A stretch of 64,000 nucleotides of DNA. Origin: Aminobacterium colombiense DSM 12261. Lineage in GTDB: Bacteria; Synergistota; Synergistia; Synergistales; Aminobacteriaceae. The stretch is taken from the NCBI RefSeq assembly GCF_000025885.1, contig NC_014011.1:1612001-1676000 (forward strand), in the 5' to 3' direction. Below the pieces are notes generated by a model. It was not told where the DNA came from. It was given only the letters and a program-made list of their open reading frames with translations, and searched no databases. A program made the translations under genes and the position numbers. Shown here piece after piece: positions 37,528 to 44,812 of the stretch; positions within the stretch are counted from its first letter, which is position 1, and every line of letters begins with the position of its first letter.

Positions 37528-38748
37528 ATGATCAGCAGGTCACTTATCGAAAAAATATTTGCTGCCGCAAGCATTGAAAGGTGGAACGATCACCCTCGGC
37601 CCGTTCAATTTACAGAGCTGGCAAAACAGGCCCATAAAATGATCATCGCTTATGTTATTGCTCGACATGAAGAGGATCGTGGAAAATCTCTTCATTGGCA
37701 ATCCTTGATCGAGGGAGGTATCTTTGAATTTCTCCACCGAGTTATCCTCACCGACATAAAACCACCTGTTTTCCATAAACTGATGGCCCATAAAAAAGAA
37801 CGGGATAAATTGAACTTATGGGTTGTGGAACGGTTGCAAAACGATCTGGAAGCCCTTTCCCCCGCTCTTTTCAACCGTTTCAGCCACTACCTTCTGACAG
37901 ATCCCGATTCTAACCGGGAGCGTAAAATACTGCGGGCAGCCCATTATCTCGCAACAAAGTGGGAATTTGACTATATTTACGAATGGAGCCGCCCTCTTTA
38001 CGGCATAGACGCTACAAAGGACGAAATAAACAGGCAAATAGAAGAACACCGCGAACTCGGCGCGGTACAGACTATGTTAATGAACCGTGAACTCCCTGAT
38101 ACAGAAAAGGGGATCTATGGTTTTATTGCTCTTGTGGGGCAGCTGCGTTTTCAAAAACGCTGGGCTCAAACCCCCAGGATCCCGGAAACATCTGTTCTGG
38201 GACACCTGCTTATAGTTGCTATCCTTTCATATTTTATAGCCCTGGAAATAGGAGCCTGTCCCAGGCGAAGCTACAATGATTTCTTCGGTGGGCTTTTCCA
38301 CGACCTTCCAGAGGTTCTCACCCGTGATATTATTTCTCCCGTAAAAAACTCAGTGGAGGGACTTGATGACCTTATTAAGGAATACGAACGTCAGGCCATG
38401 GAAGAAAAAGTTTACCCCTTGATTCCCTTTGAATGGCGAAGGGAGATTCGCTATTTTACAGAAGATGAATTCTTAAATCGCATTTGGCCCGCAGATAACT
38501 CATCTCCCCAGATTCTTCAGTCTGAAGAAATAGAAGAAACCCTGAACAATGATGAGCAAAACCCTATAGACGGCAGAGTTATCGAAGCATGCGATAAGTT
38601 CTCTGCCTTTGTAGAGGCCTCTCTTTCCATGCGGACAGGCATTACATCCCCGGCATTGGATGAAGCCAAACGAAAACTCTATGCACGATACGCCAATAAA
38701 AAGCTTTACGGTTTTCCTGTGGGAATGCTCTTTGATTTCTTCTGGTAA
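37528..38748 (+). CDS. HD-domain (YfbR-like) hydrolase
   Basis: A protein of 406 aa with an HD phosphohydrolase fold in its C-terminal half. His and Asp ligands: ETSVLGHLLIVAIL (H), FFGGLFHDLPEVLTRDIISPVK (HD), and VIEACDKFSAFVEASL (D). The N-terminal part (to about residue 200) has no family that I recognise; MIIAYVIARHEEDRG and FLHRVILTDIKPP may be a second degenerate HD segment. ATG 37528 is preferred because GGAGGAG lies about 10 nt upstream; ATG 37495 lacks an SD. Likely hydrolyses a nucleotide phosphate. Confidence 0.75.
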   Translation: MISRSLIEKIFAAASIERWNDHPRPVQFTELAKQAHKMIIAYVIARHEEDRGKSLHWQSLIEGGIFEFLHRVILTDIKPPVFHKLMAHKKERDKLNLWVVERLQNDLEALSPALFNRFSHYLLTDPDSNRERKILRAAHYLATKWEFDYIYEWSRPLYGIDATKDEINRQIEEHRELGAVQTMLMNRELPDTEKGIYGFIALVGQLRFQKRWAQTPRIPETSVLGHLLIVAILSYFIALEIGACPRRSYNDFFGGLFHDLPEVLTRDIISPVKNSVEGLDDLIKEYERQAMEEKVYPLIPFEWRREIRYFTEDEFLNRIWPADNSSPQILQSEEIEETLNNDEQNPIDGRVIEACDKFSAFVEASLSMRTGITSPALDEAKRKLYARYANKKLYGFPVGMLFDFFW

Positions 38749-38766
38749 TCCTTTTTTGCCACTATT

Positions 38767-39951
38767 CTATCTACCTTCAAGAAAACGAAGAGCCACTGCT
38801 GCCATTAGCGCTGATCCCACTGGCAAGCAGGCTTCATCTACATCGAAAAAAGGGCTGTGCAGGGGATGAACCAATCCCTTTTCTGTGTTGCCCGTACCTA
38901 AAAGAAAATATGATCCCGGCGCTTTTTGAAGAAAATAGGCAAAATCATCAACTCCCATGTTAGGCTCTTTCATCACGTGGACCCTGTCGTCCCCCAACAA
39001 TTCTCGCCCACACGCCGCTACCAGGTGTGTCATATCCTCATCATTCACAAGGCTAGGATACCCTTCTGTAAAAGAGATCTCTCCTATAGCACCCAGAGCA
39101 TCAGGAATATTCTGGGCGACACGGCGCAGGAGCGCTCTAACAAAGAGCCGGGTATCGGGATCCATTGTTCGGATAATACCCCTCATCTCAGCTCTGTCCG
39201 CAATAATATTTCCTGCCGTTCCGGCGTGAAAAGAACCTACAGTAACCACCACAGGGTCAAAAGGAGAAGTACGCCGACTCACTATGTGCTGAAGGGCGCC
39301 TACCATCTCTGATCCTACAGCCACCGCATCAATCCCCCTGTGGGGCTCAGCTCCATGACTCCCTGAACCATGGATAACTATATGGAACATATCAGAAGCG
39401 GCCCTGAACTTACCGTAGCCAATGCCAATGGTTCCAGCTTCCAACCCAGGATCACAATGAAGACTAAAGACCGCATCCACCTTTGGGGCCTCCATTATTT
39501 TCTCTTCTATCATGGGGAGAGCTCCGCCATTTGTTTCTTCGGCAGGCTGAAAAAAGAACTTCACAGTTCCACTGAATTTTTCTCTCATGGCCGCAAGAAG
39601 GGATGCTGTTCCAAGAAGAGAGGCAGTATGAACATCATGTCCACACGCATGCATTCGTCCTTCTACTTTTGAAGCATAGACAGCCTTTGTGGCCTCATAA
39701 ACCGGCAAAGCATCCATATCCGCCCGAAAGGCTACGGTTTTGCCTCCATTACCCCCTTGAAGCACGCCAACGACACCCGTTCCCGCCACTCGGAAGTGGC
39801 GGATATCAAGGTCATCGAGTTCCTTCTCGACAAGCCTTGCCGTATTTTCACAATTAAAGTCCAGCTCCGGATTTTCGTGGATCCTACGACGTAACGCAAT
39901 AAGATATTCTTTCTTTTCCAGCGCTAAAGAATTCAGTTCTTTAAAGCTCAT
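38767..39951 (-). CDS. M20D family amidohydrolase (N-acyl-amino acid/IAA-amino acid hydrolase type)
   Basis: Zinc amidohydrolase with metal site FRADMDALPV, GRMHACGHDVHTASLLG (Cys and His), FQPAEETNGGA (Glu) and a C-terminal VDDFAYFLQKAPGSYF. Length is 394 aa. This is the IAA-amino acid/hippurate hydrolase subgroup, removing acyl groups from amino acids. ATG 39951 is followed by SFKELNSLALEK. The gene is convergent with the HD protein and divergent to the thioredoxin operon. Confidence 0.9.
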   Translation of the reverse strand: MSFKELNSLALEKKEYLIALRRRIHENPELDFNCENTARLVEKELDDLDIRHFRVAGTGVVGVLQGGNGGKTVAFRADMDALPVYEATKAVYASKVEGRMHACGHDVHTASLLGTASLLAAMREKFSGTVKFFFQPAEETNGGALPMIEEKIMEAPKVDAVFSLHCDPGLEAGTIGIGYGKFRAASDMFHIVIHGSGSHGAEPHRGIDAVAVGSEMVGALQHIVSRRTSPFDPVVVTVGSFHAGTAGNIIADRAEMRGIIRTMDPDTRLFVRALLRRVAQNIPDALGAIGEISFTEGYPSLVNDEDMTHLVAACGRELLGDDRVHVMKEPNMGVDDFAYFLQKAPGSYFLLGTGNTEKGLVHPLHSPFFDVDEACLPVGSALMAAVALRFLEGR

Positions 39952-40050
39952 GGCCAGCCTCCCACCCGTTCCAAGAACATTAATTATCTTTTTTACGGTA
40001 TCATATCAAATTTTTGCGGTAAAAAAGACTACAATAGGGATCATATACCC

Positions 40051-40078
40051 TTGACGGGTACCCAAAGTCCCGTATAAT
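40051..40078 (+). promoter_or_regulatory. Promoter of the selenothioredoxin-ccdA operon
   Basis: TTGACG (40051-40056), 16-nt spacer, TATAAT (40073-40078). Starts about 24 nt before the GTG start. Confidence 0.7.
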
Positions 40079-40108
40079 CAAGATCATAAAAACGGAGGTG
40101 CATATTCT

Positions 40109-40519
40109 GTGAAAATGCGAAATGTTATTATCATTACAATACTCCTTCTAGCAATTGGAGGAACATTTTACATACGGGAAAACGGAAGACAACAAAAGGA
40201 GCACAATGTGATCATAGCAGAAGCGCCTACAGCCCTGCCAGTCATTATAGATCTTAGTGCGGCAGGCTGACCAGCGTGTGTTCAGATGTCCAAAGTTTTG
40301 GACGATTTTTCTGCTCAATATGGTGATCAGGTTCGCGTGGAAAGGGTAGATGTAATGCAAAATTCAGAGTTAGCTCAAAAATATGAGGTCAGATATGTTC
40401 CTACCCTGGTTTTTGAAGATGGGAATGGTAACATCTTAGGGAAAGAAGTAGGCTACCTGTCTTTGGAAGAGATTATTATAAAATTGGAAGAGTATGGAAT
40501 AACTCTGACATCAAAGTAG
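40109..40519 (+). CDS. Selenocysteine-containing membrane-anchored thioredoxin-like protein (UGA at 40268-40270)
   Basis: A 136-aa thioredoxin-fold protein whose frame contains an in-frame TGA read as selenocysteine. From GTG 40109 (SD GGAGGTG at 40094-40100) the frame is open through a hydrophobic anchor NVIIITILLLAIGG, into LPVIIDLSAAG, then UGA, then P-A-C and VQMSKVLDDFSAQYGD, a normal thioredoxin helix. Sec is residue 54 and Cys 57, so the active site is U-P-A-C instead of C-x-x-C. The cis-Pro strand VRYVPTLVFEDGNGN follows. A stem-loop sits 17 nt after the UGA. It is anchored with its domain outside the cytoplasm and is next to a CcdA-like gene, which would reduce it. Confidence 0.88.
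40288..40303 (+). promoter_or_regulatory. Candidate bacterial SECIS element of the selenothioredoxin
   Basis: GTCCAA (40288-40293), loop AGTT, TTGGAC (40298-40303). A 6-bp stem with the apical G expected of bSECIS, 17 nt downstream of the UGA. The G lies 27 nt from the U of the UGA. Confidence 0.7.
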
Positions 40520-40533
40520 GCGAGGAGGCCAAC

Positions 40534-41238
40534 ATGCAGCAAATATTTGAGTCAATTTACAGCAGCCTCCATGCTTCTAGCGGATTGGCCTTGACAGCAG
40601 CTTTTGTATGGGGCGTTTTCAGCATACTCTTAAGTCCTTGCAACTTGGTGACCATTCCCCTTGTGGTAGGGTATATCGAAAGCACCCGAACTGAAAAAAG
40701 TGCTAGTGCTTTTACAATCTCCCTGGCCTTTTCCAGTGGAATATTCGTTAATCTTGCCCTTGTTGGCATGGTGCTTACCTCCACGGGAATTTTAATGACA
40801 GATATTGGCAAATATACAAACTACATTGTGGCCTGTGTCTTCTTTCTCATCGGCCTCCACCTTCTCAAAGTCATTCAAATTCCCTGGTTTGGACAAAAAG
40901 AGATTAAGGCGGGCAAAAACAGAGGACTTTCAGGAGCTCTTATTCTTGGAATTGTCTCTGGCCTGGCCCTCGGCCCTTGTAGTTTTGCCTATGTAGCCCC
41001 TCTGCTGGCCTTAACCATAAAAACTGCCGCTGTCAATTTAGTTTTCGCTCTCTCACTAGTGGTGTTTTATGCTCTGGGACACTGCTCTGTCATCGTTATT
41101 GCCGGAACATCAGCAGATTTCGTTTCTAAATTTCTTCAATGGGATGAACACTCAAAAGGGCTCACTATCGTTAATAACATTTGCGGCGTTCTCATTCTCC
41201 TGGCTGGTCTTTATTTTATATACACAGTTCCCCAATAA
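40534..41238 (+). CDS. ccdA: CcdA/DsbD-type transmembrane electron-transfer protein
   Basis: Six-helix membrane protein of the CcdA family that carries reducing equivalents from cytoplasmic thioredoxin to extracytoplasmic thiol proteins. Paired cysteines are in helix 1 (FSILLSPCNLVTIPL) and helix 4 (SGLALGPCSFAYVAPL), as in all CcdA. Length is 234 aa. It starts 14 bp after the stop of the selenothioredoxin gene with SD GCGAGGAGG, so they form one operon and probably one relay. Cytochrome c maturation partners are not seen here, so a role in disulfide reduction is more likely. Confidence 0.9.
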   Translation: MQQIFESIYSSLHASSGLALTAAFVWGVFSILLSPCNLVTIPLVVGYIESTRTEKSASAFTISLAFSSGIFVNLALVGMVLTSTGILMTDIGKYTNYIVACVFFLIGLHLLKVIQIPWFGQKEIKAGKNRGLSGALILGIVSGLALGPCSFAYVAPLLALTIKTAAVNLVFALSLVVFYALGHCSVIVIAGTSADFVSKFLQWDEHSKGLTIVNNICGVLILLAGLYFIYTVPQ

Positions 41239-41242
41239 AACC

Positions 41243-41276
41243 AAGAGGGACGCTCATTTTACTCTGCGCCCCTCTT
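41243..41276. terminator. Terminator after ccdA, usable in both directions
   Basis: AAGAGGG (41243-41249) and CGC pair with GCG and CCCTCTT (41270-41276). TTTTATT follows on the minus strand, next to the small minus-strand reading frames. Confidence 0.6.
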
Positions 41277-41475
41277 CACTTTCTGGCATTTCGACCATTC
41301 CGTCGAAAACCTTTCCCTACCGGGAATATATCAGGAATTTCTTCCTGAGGTCGACTTCTATTCAGTTGTTCGTACGTAGAAGGTTCCATTACACTTATTT
41401 TCCCATCCCCTCCTTCGCCGATCCTTTAAGCATCTTTATTCTATTCCCCTTTGTGGCAACGCGCAAAAGCTCCAC
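41276..41475 (-). pseudogene. Possible small gene broken by one frameshift (or two small frames)
   Basis: In the 416-nt gap between ccdA and the peroxiredoxin gene. A GTG at 41475 with SD AGGAG five nt upstream opens a frame VELLRVATKGNRIKMLKG.. that stops at TAA 41395. A second frame from ATG 41389 (MEPSTYEQLN...) ends at TGA 41276. Adding one A in the AAAA run near 41398 would join them into a 66-aa protein rich in Arg and Lys at the end (GKGFRRNGRNARK). A terminator with T-run follows directly. No family recognised. Confidence 0.3.
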
Positions 41476-41598
41476 GGCTTCTCCTGGAGCTCTAAGGGGC
41501 AAGAAATAGCCTATAGACTAGGCAAAGATCGCAAAAACTGTAATTATCGCATATTTTTGAATTATTACACTTGCGCTACACGCTGTGGGAGCAAAATA

Positions 41599-41626
41599 AA
41601 AGGGGTGCTGATCACTGCACCCCTTT
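41599..41626 (-). terminator. Terminator of the selenoperoxiredoxin gene
   Basis: AAAGGGGTGC (41599-41608) pairs with GCACCCCTTT (41617-41626), followed on the minus strand by TTATTTT. Confidence 0.8.
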
Positions 41627-41654
41627 ACTTCTCTGCTCTTCCTTATTACTCAAA

Positions 41655-42377
41655 TTACTTCTTGTAAACGTCACGTGGATTCCATTTTTGCCAGACCTTT
41701 GCCACGAGCTCAATACCTGGTTCAAGAACTTTGCCGCCAGGCTGCCAGCCAGACGGGGTAACTTGGGATCCACCAGTCTCTCTTACAAGTTGAAAGGCTT
41801 TTATTTGCCTAATCATTTCGTCTACATTGCGCCCCACGGGTGGAGTAAGAACCTCCATGGCCTGTATAACGCCGTCCGGATCAATAATGAAACGGCCCCG
41901 CACATCTACCCCGGCTACGGAATCATATACTCCGTAGGCGCTCCCTATGTTTCCGCCACCATCTGAAGCCATATGGAAGGGAACTCCGCCTTCCGCCATT
42001 TTCGAAAGCTCTGTGTCATTCCATACTTTATGAACAAACTGGCTGTCCACACTTACGGAAATAACTTCTACGCCAAGGCCATTAATTTCTTCATATCTGT
42101 CAGCAACTGCTGACACTTCAGTAGCTCAGACGAAAGTAAAATCTCCTGGATAGAAACATAGCAAAACCCATTTGCCTGCGAAATCAGACAATGTAACGGT
42201 CGTAAAAGTTCCTTTATAATAGGCTGGAGCTGTGAAGTCAGGAGCTTTTCTTCCTACCATAATGGTCATTTTACCCTCCTCCTTCTGTGAGGATTTTGCT
42301 TCAACTTGTTCTTTCTGAGATTCCTGTTTCTCGATTTTTGCTATAGGTACAGTGCAGCCGCTCTTTTTTTCTGTCAT
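41655..42377 (-). CDS. Selenocysteine peroxiredoxin (AhpC/TSA family; UGA at 42128-42126)
   Basis: Thiol peroxidase in which the peroxidatic cysteine is encoded by UGA. The frame reads FYPGDFTFV-U-ATEVSAVADRYEEI, where ordinary family members have FVCPTE. Without readthrough, the frame would be cut into two pieces exactly at the catalytic residue. Sec is residue 84 of the long form, or 48 counted from the internal ATG 42269, which matches the normal position of the peroxidatic residue. Both starts have a strong SD. The resolving-cysteine region reads QVTPSGWQPG, with Thr where AhpC has Cys, so it acts as a one-Sec enzyme needing an outside reductant. The C-terminal half (DSVAGVDVRGRFIIDPDG) is normal. 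Confidence 0.9.
42098..42115 (-). promoter_or_regulatory. Candidate bacterial SECIS element of the selenoperoxiredoxin
   Basis: On the minus strand TGTCAGC (42115-42109), loop AGTT, GCTGACA (42104-42098): a perfect 7-bp stem 10 nt downstream of the UGA with the same AGUU loop as the thioredoxin element. Confidence 0.7.
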
Positions 42378-42462
42378 TTACTCCCCTCCTCTCAAAAATC
42401 TCTTTAATAATATCACAATAATCAAAGGCTATTTAGAAGAATTCTTTTTATAACAAAAAGAT

Positions 42463-42726
42463 ATGATCTATCTGCAATTCTCTGCCACTTCTCTTACCGA
42501 CAGCGTTCATTTCTGGCATTTCCCATTTTTCAAATACGAGAATCCTATGGAGATAAAATCGAGGTCTCCATGGTAAATCCACGAAACATCTTAATCATTT
42601 ATTGACAATATCCGTTATAATATTAGGTGCAATGTCCCGATATGGATATTGGAAGGAGAGAAAATCTACGAAGGAATTCCTTCATGGGAAGAGCTCAAGG
42701 CATTAATAGATTCCAGACTCAGTTGA
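42463..42726 (+). pseudogene. Decayed thioredoxin-like gene
   Basis: Located in the 569-nt gap before typA. From ATG 42463 one frame reads MIYLQFSATSLTDSVHFW, where thioredoxins have a CxxC pair; here both would-be cysteines are Ser. The +2 frame then reads YGDKIEVSMVNPRNILIIY up to a TGA at 42603. The first frame then continues DNIRYNIRCNVPIWILEGEK and ends PSWEELKALIDSRLS at TGA 42726. Put together, the three parts give a normal small thioredoxin-fold order, including a cis-Pro (NVP). Two compensating indels and loss of the active site mark it as dead. The remainder of the gap (42378-42462 and 42727-42861) shows nothing that I can name. Confidence 0.5.
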
Positions 42727-42861
42727 CAATTATTCCAGCATAAAGCCTGCGAAGCGATTTTCATATTCCCACTTTTGTTTCTCATTTATAAACTTTAAAC
42801 AACAAAATAAAAGACAGTCAAAGAGAGATATTGTCTAAATGGCAACATTTGCTTCTTACGG

Positions 42862-42890
42862 TTGCTGTTTTTAGAAATTTGGCGTAAAAT
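42862..42890 (+). promoter_or_regulatory. Promoter of typA
   Basis: TTGCTG (42862-42867), 17-nt spacer, TAAAAT (42885-42890). Confidence 0.55.
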
Positions 42891-42946
42891 ATTTATTTGT
42901 TTCTGATTATTTTCAGGAAACTGTATACTTTAGGGAGTTGTTATAG

Positions 42947-44812
42947 ATGGTTCAAGCTGAAAAAATTCGCAATCTGGCAATTATAGCCCATATTGATCAT
43001 GGGAAGACCACGCTGATCGATTCTATTTTTAAGGCCGCACAAATCTTTAGAAAAGGGGCCCATATAGAAGAACGCGTTATGGATAGCAATGAACTTGAAA
43101 GAGAGCGAGGCATCACCATAAGGGCCAAGCATTGTACTGTCGAATGGAATGGATATTTGATAAACATTATAGACACTCCGGGACACGCTGACTTTTCTGG
43201 AGAAGTGGAACGCGTCCTCTCAACAGTTGATTCTGTCCTTCTGCTCGTCGATGCCAACGAAGGGCCCATGCCCCAGACACGATATGTACTCATGAGAGCT
43301 CTGGCCATGGGGCTGCGTCCTATTGTCTTTATCAACAAAGTGGACCGCCCTCACGCCAACCCCATGTCTGCGTTAAATCAGACCTTTGACCTCTTTATAG
43401 AATTAGGAGCCGCAGAAGAGCAGCTGGATTTCCCTGTTCTTTACGGATCAGGCCTGGATGGATGGGCTGTCAGAGATCTGAATAAATATGCCCATGAAGG
43501 AATGAAGCACCTCTTCGAAACTATTGCTGAGTATGTGCCTGCTCCAAAGGTGAACCTACATGCTCCCTTTCTCATGCAGGTAAGTACCCTTGCGTGGAAT
43601 GAGTACACTGGGCGAATCGGGTGCGGTAAAGTACTTCAGGGAACCCTTCGTAAAGGTGAAAATTTTATCCGTTACTCCACAAAATGGAAAAAGCCCAATC
43701 TCAGAGGAGAAGAATGGGAGATTTGCGATGAAGAACAGACCCGCTCTGTAAAAATGTGGGTTACGCGAGGACTAGAGCGTCAGGAAGTGGAAGAAATATC
43801 GGCAGGGGATATCGTCTGGATCTCCGGCCCCCAGGAGATCAACATCGGAGACACCTTCTGCTCGCCAGAGCTTGAAGGGAAGACCCTCCCTCCCCTGGCC
43901 ATAGAGGAACCTACCGTATCTATGTTCTTTTTGGTCAATACCGGACCTTTTTCAGGGCAGGAAGGACAACCTATTACTCTGCGTCAATTAAAAGCCCGCC
44001 TTGAAAGAGAAAAACATGTCAATGTCGCTCTTCGGGTAGAGGATATTGGGCGTCCTGACGGAGTAAAGGTGTCAGGACGAGGAGAGCTTCATCTTTCCAT
44101 TCTCATCGAGGAAATGAGACGGGAAGGTCTCGAATTTTGCGTATCCAAACCGGAAGTCATTACCAGGGAAGAAGATGGACGAACATTTGAGCCCATGGAA
44201 GACCTCACTATTGATGTCCCAGAGGAATATCAGGGAGTAGTATTCGAAAAACTCTCCCGAAGAAAAGCTCGACTCGTCTCTATGGATAATACCCAAACAG
44301 GTCTCGTACGGCTCTCTTTTCAGATTCCTACTCGGGGACTTATTGGGTATCGGGGAGAATTTCTTACAGACACGAGAGGCCTTGGCATTATGAATACCGT
44401 ATTTGCCGGATATGGCCCATGGGTCGGCACCATATCCCCACGCAATCGAGGAAGCCTCGTCAGCCTTGATACTGGAGAAGCGACAAGTTACCAGCTTGAG
44501 AACCTCCAGGAACGGGGAACCCTTTTCATAGAACCGGGAGAGCTTGTTTATGAGGGAATGATCGTGGGAGAAAATTCGCGCCCCGGAGATATGCCCTGCA
44601 ACCCAACTAAAAAGAAGCAGGCTACGAACCACCGCTCAGCGACAAAAGACTTGACAACCAAGCTGGATGTCCCTCGTAAAATGTCCCTTGAGAAAGCAAT
44701 GGAGTGGATTGCAGAAGAAGAGCTAGTGGAAGTAACACCCCAATCTGTAAGAATGAGAAAAGCTGTTCTTGATTATCAGGAACGAAGAAAATCCACAAAA
44801 AAAGCAAGCTAA
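42947..44812 (+). CDS. typA: Translational GTPase TypA/BipA
   Basis: Ribosome-associated GTPase of the EF-G family, involved in ribosome assembly and stress adaptation. G motifs: AHIDHGKTTLID (G1), RGITIRAKH (G2), DTPGHADFSGEVER (G3), NKVDRPHA (G4). The BipA-specific C-terminal domain is seen in TRGLIGYRGEFLTDTRG and GELVYEGMIVGEN with the typical NPTKKKQATNHRSA. Length is 621 aa, slightly over the usual 607-615. ATG 42947 follows GGGAG. It stands alone with its own promoter and terminator. Confidence 0.96.
   Translation: MVQAEKIRNLAIIAHIDHGKTTLIDSIFKAAQIFRKGAHIEERVMDSNELERERGITIRAKHCTVEWNGYLINIIDTPGHADFSGEVERVLSTVDSVLLLVDANEGPMPQTRYVLMRALAMGLRPIVFINKVDRPHANPMSALNQTFDLFIELGAAEEQLDFPVLYGSGLDGWAVRDLNKYAHEGMKHLFETIAEYVPAPKVNLHAPFLMQVSTLAWNEYTGRIGCGKVLQGTLRKGENFIRYSTKWKKPNLRGEEWEICDEEQTRSVKMWVTRGLERQEVEEISAGDIVWISGPQEINIGDTFCSPELEGKTLPPLAIEEPTVSMFFLVNTGPFSGQEGQPITLRQLKARLEREKHVNVALRVEDIGRPDGVKVSGRGELHLSILIEEMRREGLEFCVSKPEVITREEDGRTFEPMEDLTIDVPEEYQGVVFEKLSRRKARLVSMDNTQTGLVRLSFQIPTRGLIGYRGEFLTDTRGLGIMNTVFAGYGPWVGTISPRNRGSLVSLDTGEATSYQLENLQERGTLFIEPGELVYEGMIVGENSRPGDMPCNPTKKKQATNHRSATKDLTTKLDVPRKMSLEKAMEWIAEEELVEVTPQSVRMRKAVLDYQERRKSTKKAS

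Follow-up and report, generated by a model that had tools for sequence, protein, structure and literature searches.

A predicted selenocysteine thioredoxin encoded with CcdA in Aminobacterium colombiense and related Synergistota

Aminobacterium colombiense ALA-1T is a strict anaerobe that ferments amino acids. Its cells stain Gram-negative, and in section they show a thick wall with an S-layer (PMC3035294). The complete genome of the strain consists of one contig of 1,980,592 bp, from which a window of 64,000 nucleotides is considered here. Two closely spaced genes lie at positions 40109-41238 of this window (Table 1). The first starts with a GTG that is preceded by the Shine-Dalgarno sequence GGAGG at a distance of about 10 nt and by a promoter-like TTGACG-16-TATAAT about 30 nt upstream. 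A first-pass annotation, made from the letters of the sequence, described a frame that passes a TGA at the first position of a thioredoxin active site, continues as a normal thioredoxin and is followed after 14 nt by ccdA. This description holds. The frame contains a single TGA, at the position given; the readthrough product of 136 residues matches Pfam Thioredoxin (PF00085, 5e-13) as well as PF13098 (4.2e-12); and the gap between its TAG and the ATG of the next ORF, which matches DsbD_TM, is indeed 14 nt. The structure model and Foldseek agree with Pfam on a thioredoxin fold (structure models were taken as confirming folds only), and the C/U-x-x-C motif is accompanied by a cis-proline, P98, that is invariant in the alignment.

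Table 1. Features at the selenothioredoxin-ccdA locus (positions in the window)
Feature	Position	Strand	Remarks
Promoter-like site TTGACG-16-TATAAT	40051..40078	+	11/12 consensus positions; consensus match only
Predicted selenothioredoxin gene	40109..40519	+	GTG start; TGA (Sec) 40268-40270; TAG stop 40517-40519; 136 aa including Sec
Putative membrane anchor, single, residues ~4-24	40118..40180	+	hydropathy peak 1.88; helix 4-24 in structure model
Active site U-P-A-C	40268..40279	+	TGA is codon 54; Cys57 is TGT 40277-40279
Predicted bacterial SECIS hairpin GUCCAA-AGUU-UUGGAC	40288..40303	+	loop AGUU 40294-40297; 23 nt past UGA
ccdA, 234 aa	40534..41238	+	DsbD_TM match 1.9e-11; own Shine-Dalgarno
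PrxU-type peroxiredoxin gene, predicted second selenoprotein	41655..42377	-	TGA codon 84; convergent with ccdA

Does the TGA encode selenocysteine? The search for Sec machinery that the first-pass annotation had proposed recovered selA, selB, selD and a tRNA-Sec with the anticodon UCA, and selD itself carries a TGA in the context SG-U-AAKIGP. Across 151 Synergistota genomes, 27 loci have TGA as the aligned active-site codon, and most of the rest have TGC or TGT. The two further Aminobacterium genomes in the sample show TGA in this column as well. A SelA match is present in 25 of the 26 genomes with a TGA locus, the exception (G084) being a draft genome. On a tree of the exported-type loci, from which cytoplasmic-type copies were left out (25 Sec and 48 Cys rows), nine changes between Sec and Cys are needed, eight of them forced by well-supported branches. 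The homologues in this tree have Cys or TGA in the active-site column, and neither tryptophan nor a terminal stop was found there.

A true stop, a sequencing error or gene decay, leaving a pseudogene or a truncated product, would agree with the meaning of TGA under translation table 11 and with the short ORF at 40286-40519 that has its own ATG after the TGA. However, this ATG has no Shine-Dalgarno sequence and corresponds to an internal methionine in the Cys homologues. Truncation also fits poorly with the recurrence of TGA at one column in 25 exported-type loci from several families and with the hairpin kept 3' of it. Among the three congeners, codon differences past the TGA fall mostly at third positions (dS is saturated in this comparison), which argues that the downstream part is under selection as protein. 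We regard truncation as extremely improbable. The comparison supports the prediction that 40109-40519 is a selenoprotein gene with selenocysteine at the TGA: the codon recurs in independent genomes, homologues have Cys in its place, and a SECIS-like hairpin is nearly confined to the TGA copies.

The predicted SECIS hairpin lies just 3' of the UGA and has a small loop with a G in its first two positions, as is typical of bacterial elements. An Rfam search of positions 38000-44000 gave no matches, and the stability of the hairpin, taken in the window alone, is not unusual when compared with shuffled sequences (z = -0.94); the case for a SECIS element thus rests on conservation. Only loci with M-[SA]-[KR]-V-[LV] as the peptide motif at the hairpin site were compared. 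Of the 17 TGA loci in this set, 16 have all six hairpin pairs, as against 2 of 18 Cys loci (Fisher p = 6e-7, a statistic that rests on related sequences). Since the peptide motif is common to both groups, the difference must lie largely at synonymous sites. One of the pairs shows a compensatory change, from U-A to G-C, in three sequences. In phylogenetically independent pairs, the hairpin tracks Sec in about five of eight and shows the opposite pattern in almost none (median p 0.06). There is good evidence from these alignments that the predicted hairpin acts as a SECIS element. Loci of the Dethiosulfovibrio type (L058, L059, L065, L075, L078, and L079) have another hairpin, of the CGAAUCC..GGAUUCG type, slightly further 3' of the UGA. 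A reading of the A. colombiense hairpin together with ATTTTT as a terminator was rejected; the T-run is missing in both congeners.

Synergistetes are rich in selenoproteins (PMC5029168). The PrxU-type peroxiredoxin gene near ccdA has its TGA at the peroxidatic position (FTFVUATE), a TGA that is also present in both sampled congeners, and its strong hairpin shares the AGUU loop with that of the selenothioredoxin gene. This gene is a neighbour that stands outside the conserved thioredoxin-ccdA module. Additional thioredoxins occur elsewhere in the phylum. At three loci (L083, L099, and L101), a tandem paralogue with serine at the first position of the active site (SPEC or SSEC) lies beside the UPAC or CPAC thioredoxin. 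Two genomes of one family (f2) encode separate Sec-thioredoxins of cytoplasmic type with the motif UPPC (L085 and L086). Other candidate recoding events were discarded: the in-frame TAG in some homologue hits is a terminal stop, the active site there having an ordinary Cys, and a TGA inside a DsbD_TM gene of genome G077 aligns with Asp in G012.

Where would the selenothioredoxin reside? Hydropathy and the structure model agree on one hydrophobic segment near its N-terminus, after which comes a loose linker. Typical signal peptides are present in many homologues (e.g., MKALFIAVLAAVLAAVPASA in Fretibacterium), and an anchor in others. The claim of the first-pass annotation that a membrane anchor precedes the thioredoxin and that the protein is paired with CcdA is therefore borne out by hydropathy, the structure model, the signal peptides of homologues and gene order, from which we infer that the thioredoxin domain lies outside the membrane. 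Given the thick wall with its S-layer, we avoid the term periplasm and refer to the outer face of the cytoplasmic membrane.

The product of the second gene resembles CcdA in several respects. CcdA/DsbD proteins have a redox pair of cysteines, placed in helices 1 and 4 of the membrane domain; in keeping with this, Cys36 (in SPC) and Cys149 (in GPC) are invariant in 27 of 27 homologues. The CcdA structure 5vkv is its sole PDB profile match (1.7e-9) and the top fold match of its model, a match that is moderate only (E = 5.6e-3); the model itself is of moderate confidence, with a helix count roughly consistent with a six-helix-type domain. The best NCBIfam match is to ArsG (NF040495), which would be in keeping with an ArsG-type efflux permease that works with an ArsE-like thioredoxin to export aromatic arsenicals or another thiol-bound compound. 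Nevertheless, the score of 57.7 bits is far below the curated cut-off of 200, the invariant cysteine pair and the structural matches are those of CcdA, and there is no arsenic gene among the conserved neighbours, making a role in arsenical export very unlikely.

This CcdA is encoded by the only DsbD_TM gene found in the A. colombiense genome, and across the phylum a ccdA gene lies directly 3' of the thioredoxin gene on the same strand in 30 loci (21 Sec and 9 Cys; gap -4 to +18 nt). Four exported Sec-thioredoxins have no adjoining ccdA (L061, L080, L082, and L083). In the genome that carries the last of these (G013), a DsbD_TM gene was not found, so another reductant may serve its Sec-thioredoxin. 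A third gene kept beside the pair across families was looked for and not found, and no client gene is conserved there. The only other PF00085 thioredoxin in the A. colombiense genome is of the cytoplasmic CGPC type and is the likely electron donor to CcdA. The arrangement that characterises Etrx proteins, a thioredoxin outside the membrane that is encoded with ccdA, is present here as judged by sequence only.

CcdA was named for its role in cytochrome c biogenesis, and 5vkv is annotated as a cytochrome c-type biogenesis protein. Could the two genes form a classical maturation relay, with CcdA feeding a ResA- or CcmG-like thioredoxin? No Cytochrom_C_asm (CcsA/CcmF) protein was found in the complete A. 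colombiense genome, which makes this role unlikely. In profile searches the thioredoxin matches Thioredoxin and Thioredoxin_2, and not a ResA family, and the genome paper makes no mention of cytochromes (PMC3035294). Cytochrome c maturation is consequently a very improbable function of the pair.

In our proposal, the two genes at positions 40109-41238 would form an operon that encodes a thiol-reducing relay outside the cytoplasm. UGA codon 54 would be read as selenocysteine with the aid of the SECIS hairpin just 3' of it, yielding a thioredoxin domain, anchored on the outside of the cytoplasmic membrane, whose UPAC active site would attack through selenocysteine. CcdA would take electrons from cytoplasmic thioredoxin and hand them across the membrane, via Cys36 and Cys149, to the selenothioredoxin; once reduced, the latter would in turn reduce oxidised clients outside the membrane. 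An outward-facing selenothioredoxin-CcdA relay is, as a whole, a very probable explanation of the locus. Its sequence-supported parts are the TGA at a Cys position, the conservation of the SECIS hairpin, the Sec machinery, membrane targeting, the operon and the sole CcdA; the direction of electron flow and the clients are what we infer.

Which proteins might be the clients? The only MsrA found in the A. colombiense genome is itself a predicted selenoprotein with the motif GUFW (L152:1324-2097; C1:43999-44406 plus flanks), encoded far from the selenothioredoxin-ccdA locus. It has an N-terminal hydrophobic segment resembling a signal peptide, an MsrA_helical domain and no resolving Cys. Initiation at an internal ATG, which has a good Shine-Dalgarno sequence, could also yield a cytoplasmic MsrA. 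As a working hypothesis, this exported-looking Sec-MsrA is plausibly the best candidate client. Taken further, Synergistota may possess a relay with selenium in both the carrier (the CcdA-fed UPAC thioredoxin) and the end enzyme (the exported Sec-MsrA without a resolving cysteine), which would repair oxidised methionine in the envelope proteins of strict anaerobes; we put this forward as a speculative and rather unlikely scheme. Alternatively, the same relay may mainly serve misfolded envelope proteins, acting as a reductase or isomerase in quality control, and methionine sulfoxide repair would not be its principal task. DsbD-like relays feed isomerases too, and no msr gene lies beside the thioredoxin-ccdA pair, whereas the exported-looking Sec-MsrA would be a client that matches methionine repair. 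Quality control as the main task is possible, if somewhat doubtful.

For most selenothioredoxin-like proteins, there is only a sequence and no known partner. In the present case, gene order puts a name to the partner (CcdA) and to the compartment (outside), with Sec-MsrA as the candidate client, which opens the use of selenium in such a relay to testing. The predicted selenothioredoxin-ccdA arrangement is found in A. colombiense and many of its relatives, and the gene order points to a line of repair, based on selenium, that would serve oxidised proteins outside the cell. The phylum offers natural Sec/Cys pairs of one operon, with at least eight switches between the two residues, in which the putative SECIS hairpin is gained or lost with the Sec codon mostly at synonymous sites. 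The Synergistota operon may thus provide a clean setting in which to ask why selenium is kept or lost.

How does the locus compare with known systems? The first-pass annotation had regarded the combination as one that was not known. Each half is known singly, and no paper that joins a Sec-thioredoxin with CcdA was found in the open-access literature; a pairing of the two that is conserved across a phylum appears to be undescribed in the open-access papers searched. Passages of reviews list a Sec-thioredoxin family (PF00085, UxxC) and, with reports from Geobacter and Syntrophus, a thiol:disulfide interchange family of selenoproteins (PF13098, UxxC), the latter with no account of its gene context (PMC13188914, PMC9312934, PMC1794560). 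The known Sec-thioredoxins share with the A. colombiense protein the thioredoxin fold and Sec at the first active-site position. By contrast, the A. colombiense domain is predicted to face outwards and belongs to a two-gene unit with ccdA, and CcdA is not mentioned in those review passages. The cytoplasmic-type UPPC copies are closer to ordinary Sec-thioredoxins. The A. colombiense protein may belong to the same family as the PF13098 selenoproteins (e.g., WP_011366075.1), the likeness consisting of UxxC and the Pfam match alone. Phage records held ordinary thioredoxins only.

TsoB (NF045694), which resembles a rhodanese/DsbD fusion, likewise combines DsbD-like transmembrane and thioredoxin-like parts in a selenoprotein, but it is a single fusion protein that also has a rhodanese part and contains two Sec, whereas A. 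colombiense has two separate genes whose products match the TsoB model weakly (scores 21-31 versus a cut-off of 805). In phyla other than Synergistota, Sulfuricella denitrificans (plasmid pSCD) and Acetoanaerobium noterae encode an exported thioredoxin directly before or overlapping ccdA, with Cys and not Sec in the active site (CIPC and CPAC). In Sulfuricella (L155) the two genes overlap by 4 nt, and adjoining genes encode OsmC, TauE/SafE, and an RND transporter. Among characterised systems, streptococcal relays pass electrons from CcdA through a thioredoxin to methionine sulfoxide reductase, as in CcdA1-Etrx1-MsrAB2 and CcdA2-Etrx2 of Streptococcus pneumoniae and CcdA-SdbB/Sgo_1177-MsrAB of S. 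gordonii (PMC3914529, PMC7034828). In these, as in A. colombiense, ccdA is paired with a surface thioredoxin. The streptococcal thioredoxins are Cys proteins, and in S. pneumoniae lipoproteins, whereas that of A. colombiense is predicted to contain Sec, and its candidate client is an MsrA that also carries Sec and is encoded elsewhere in the genome.
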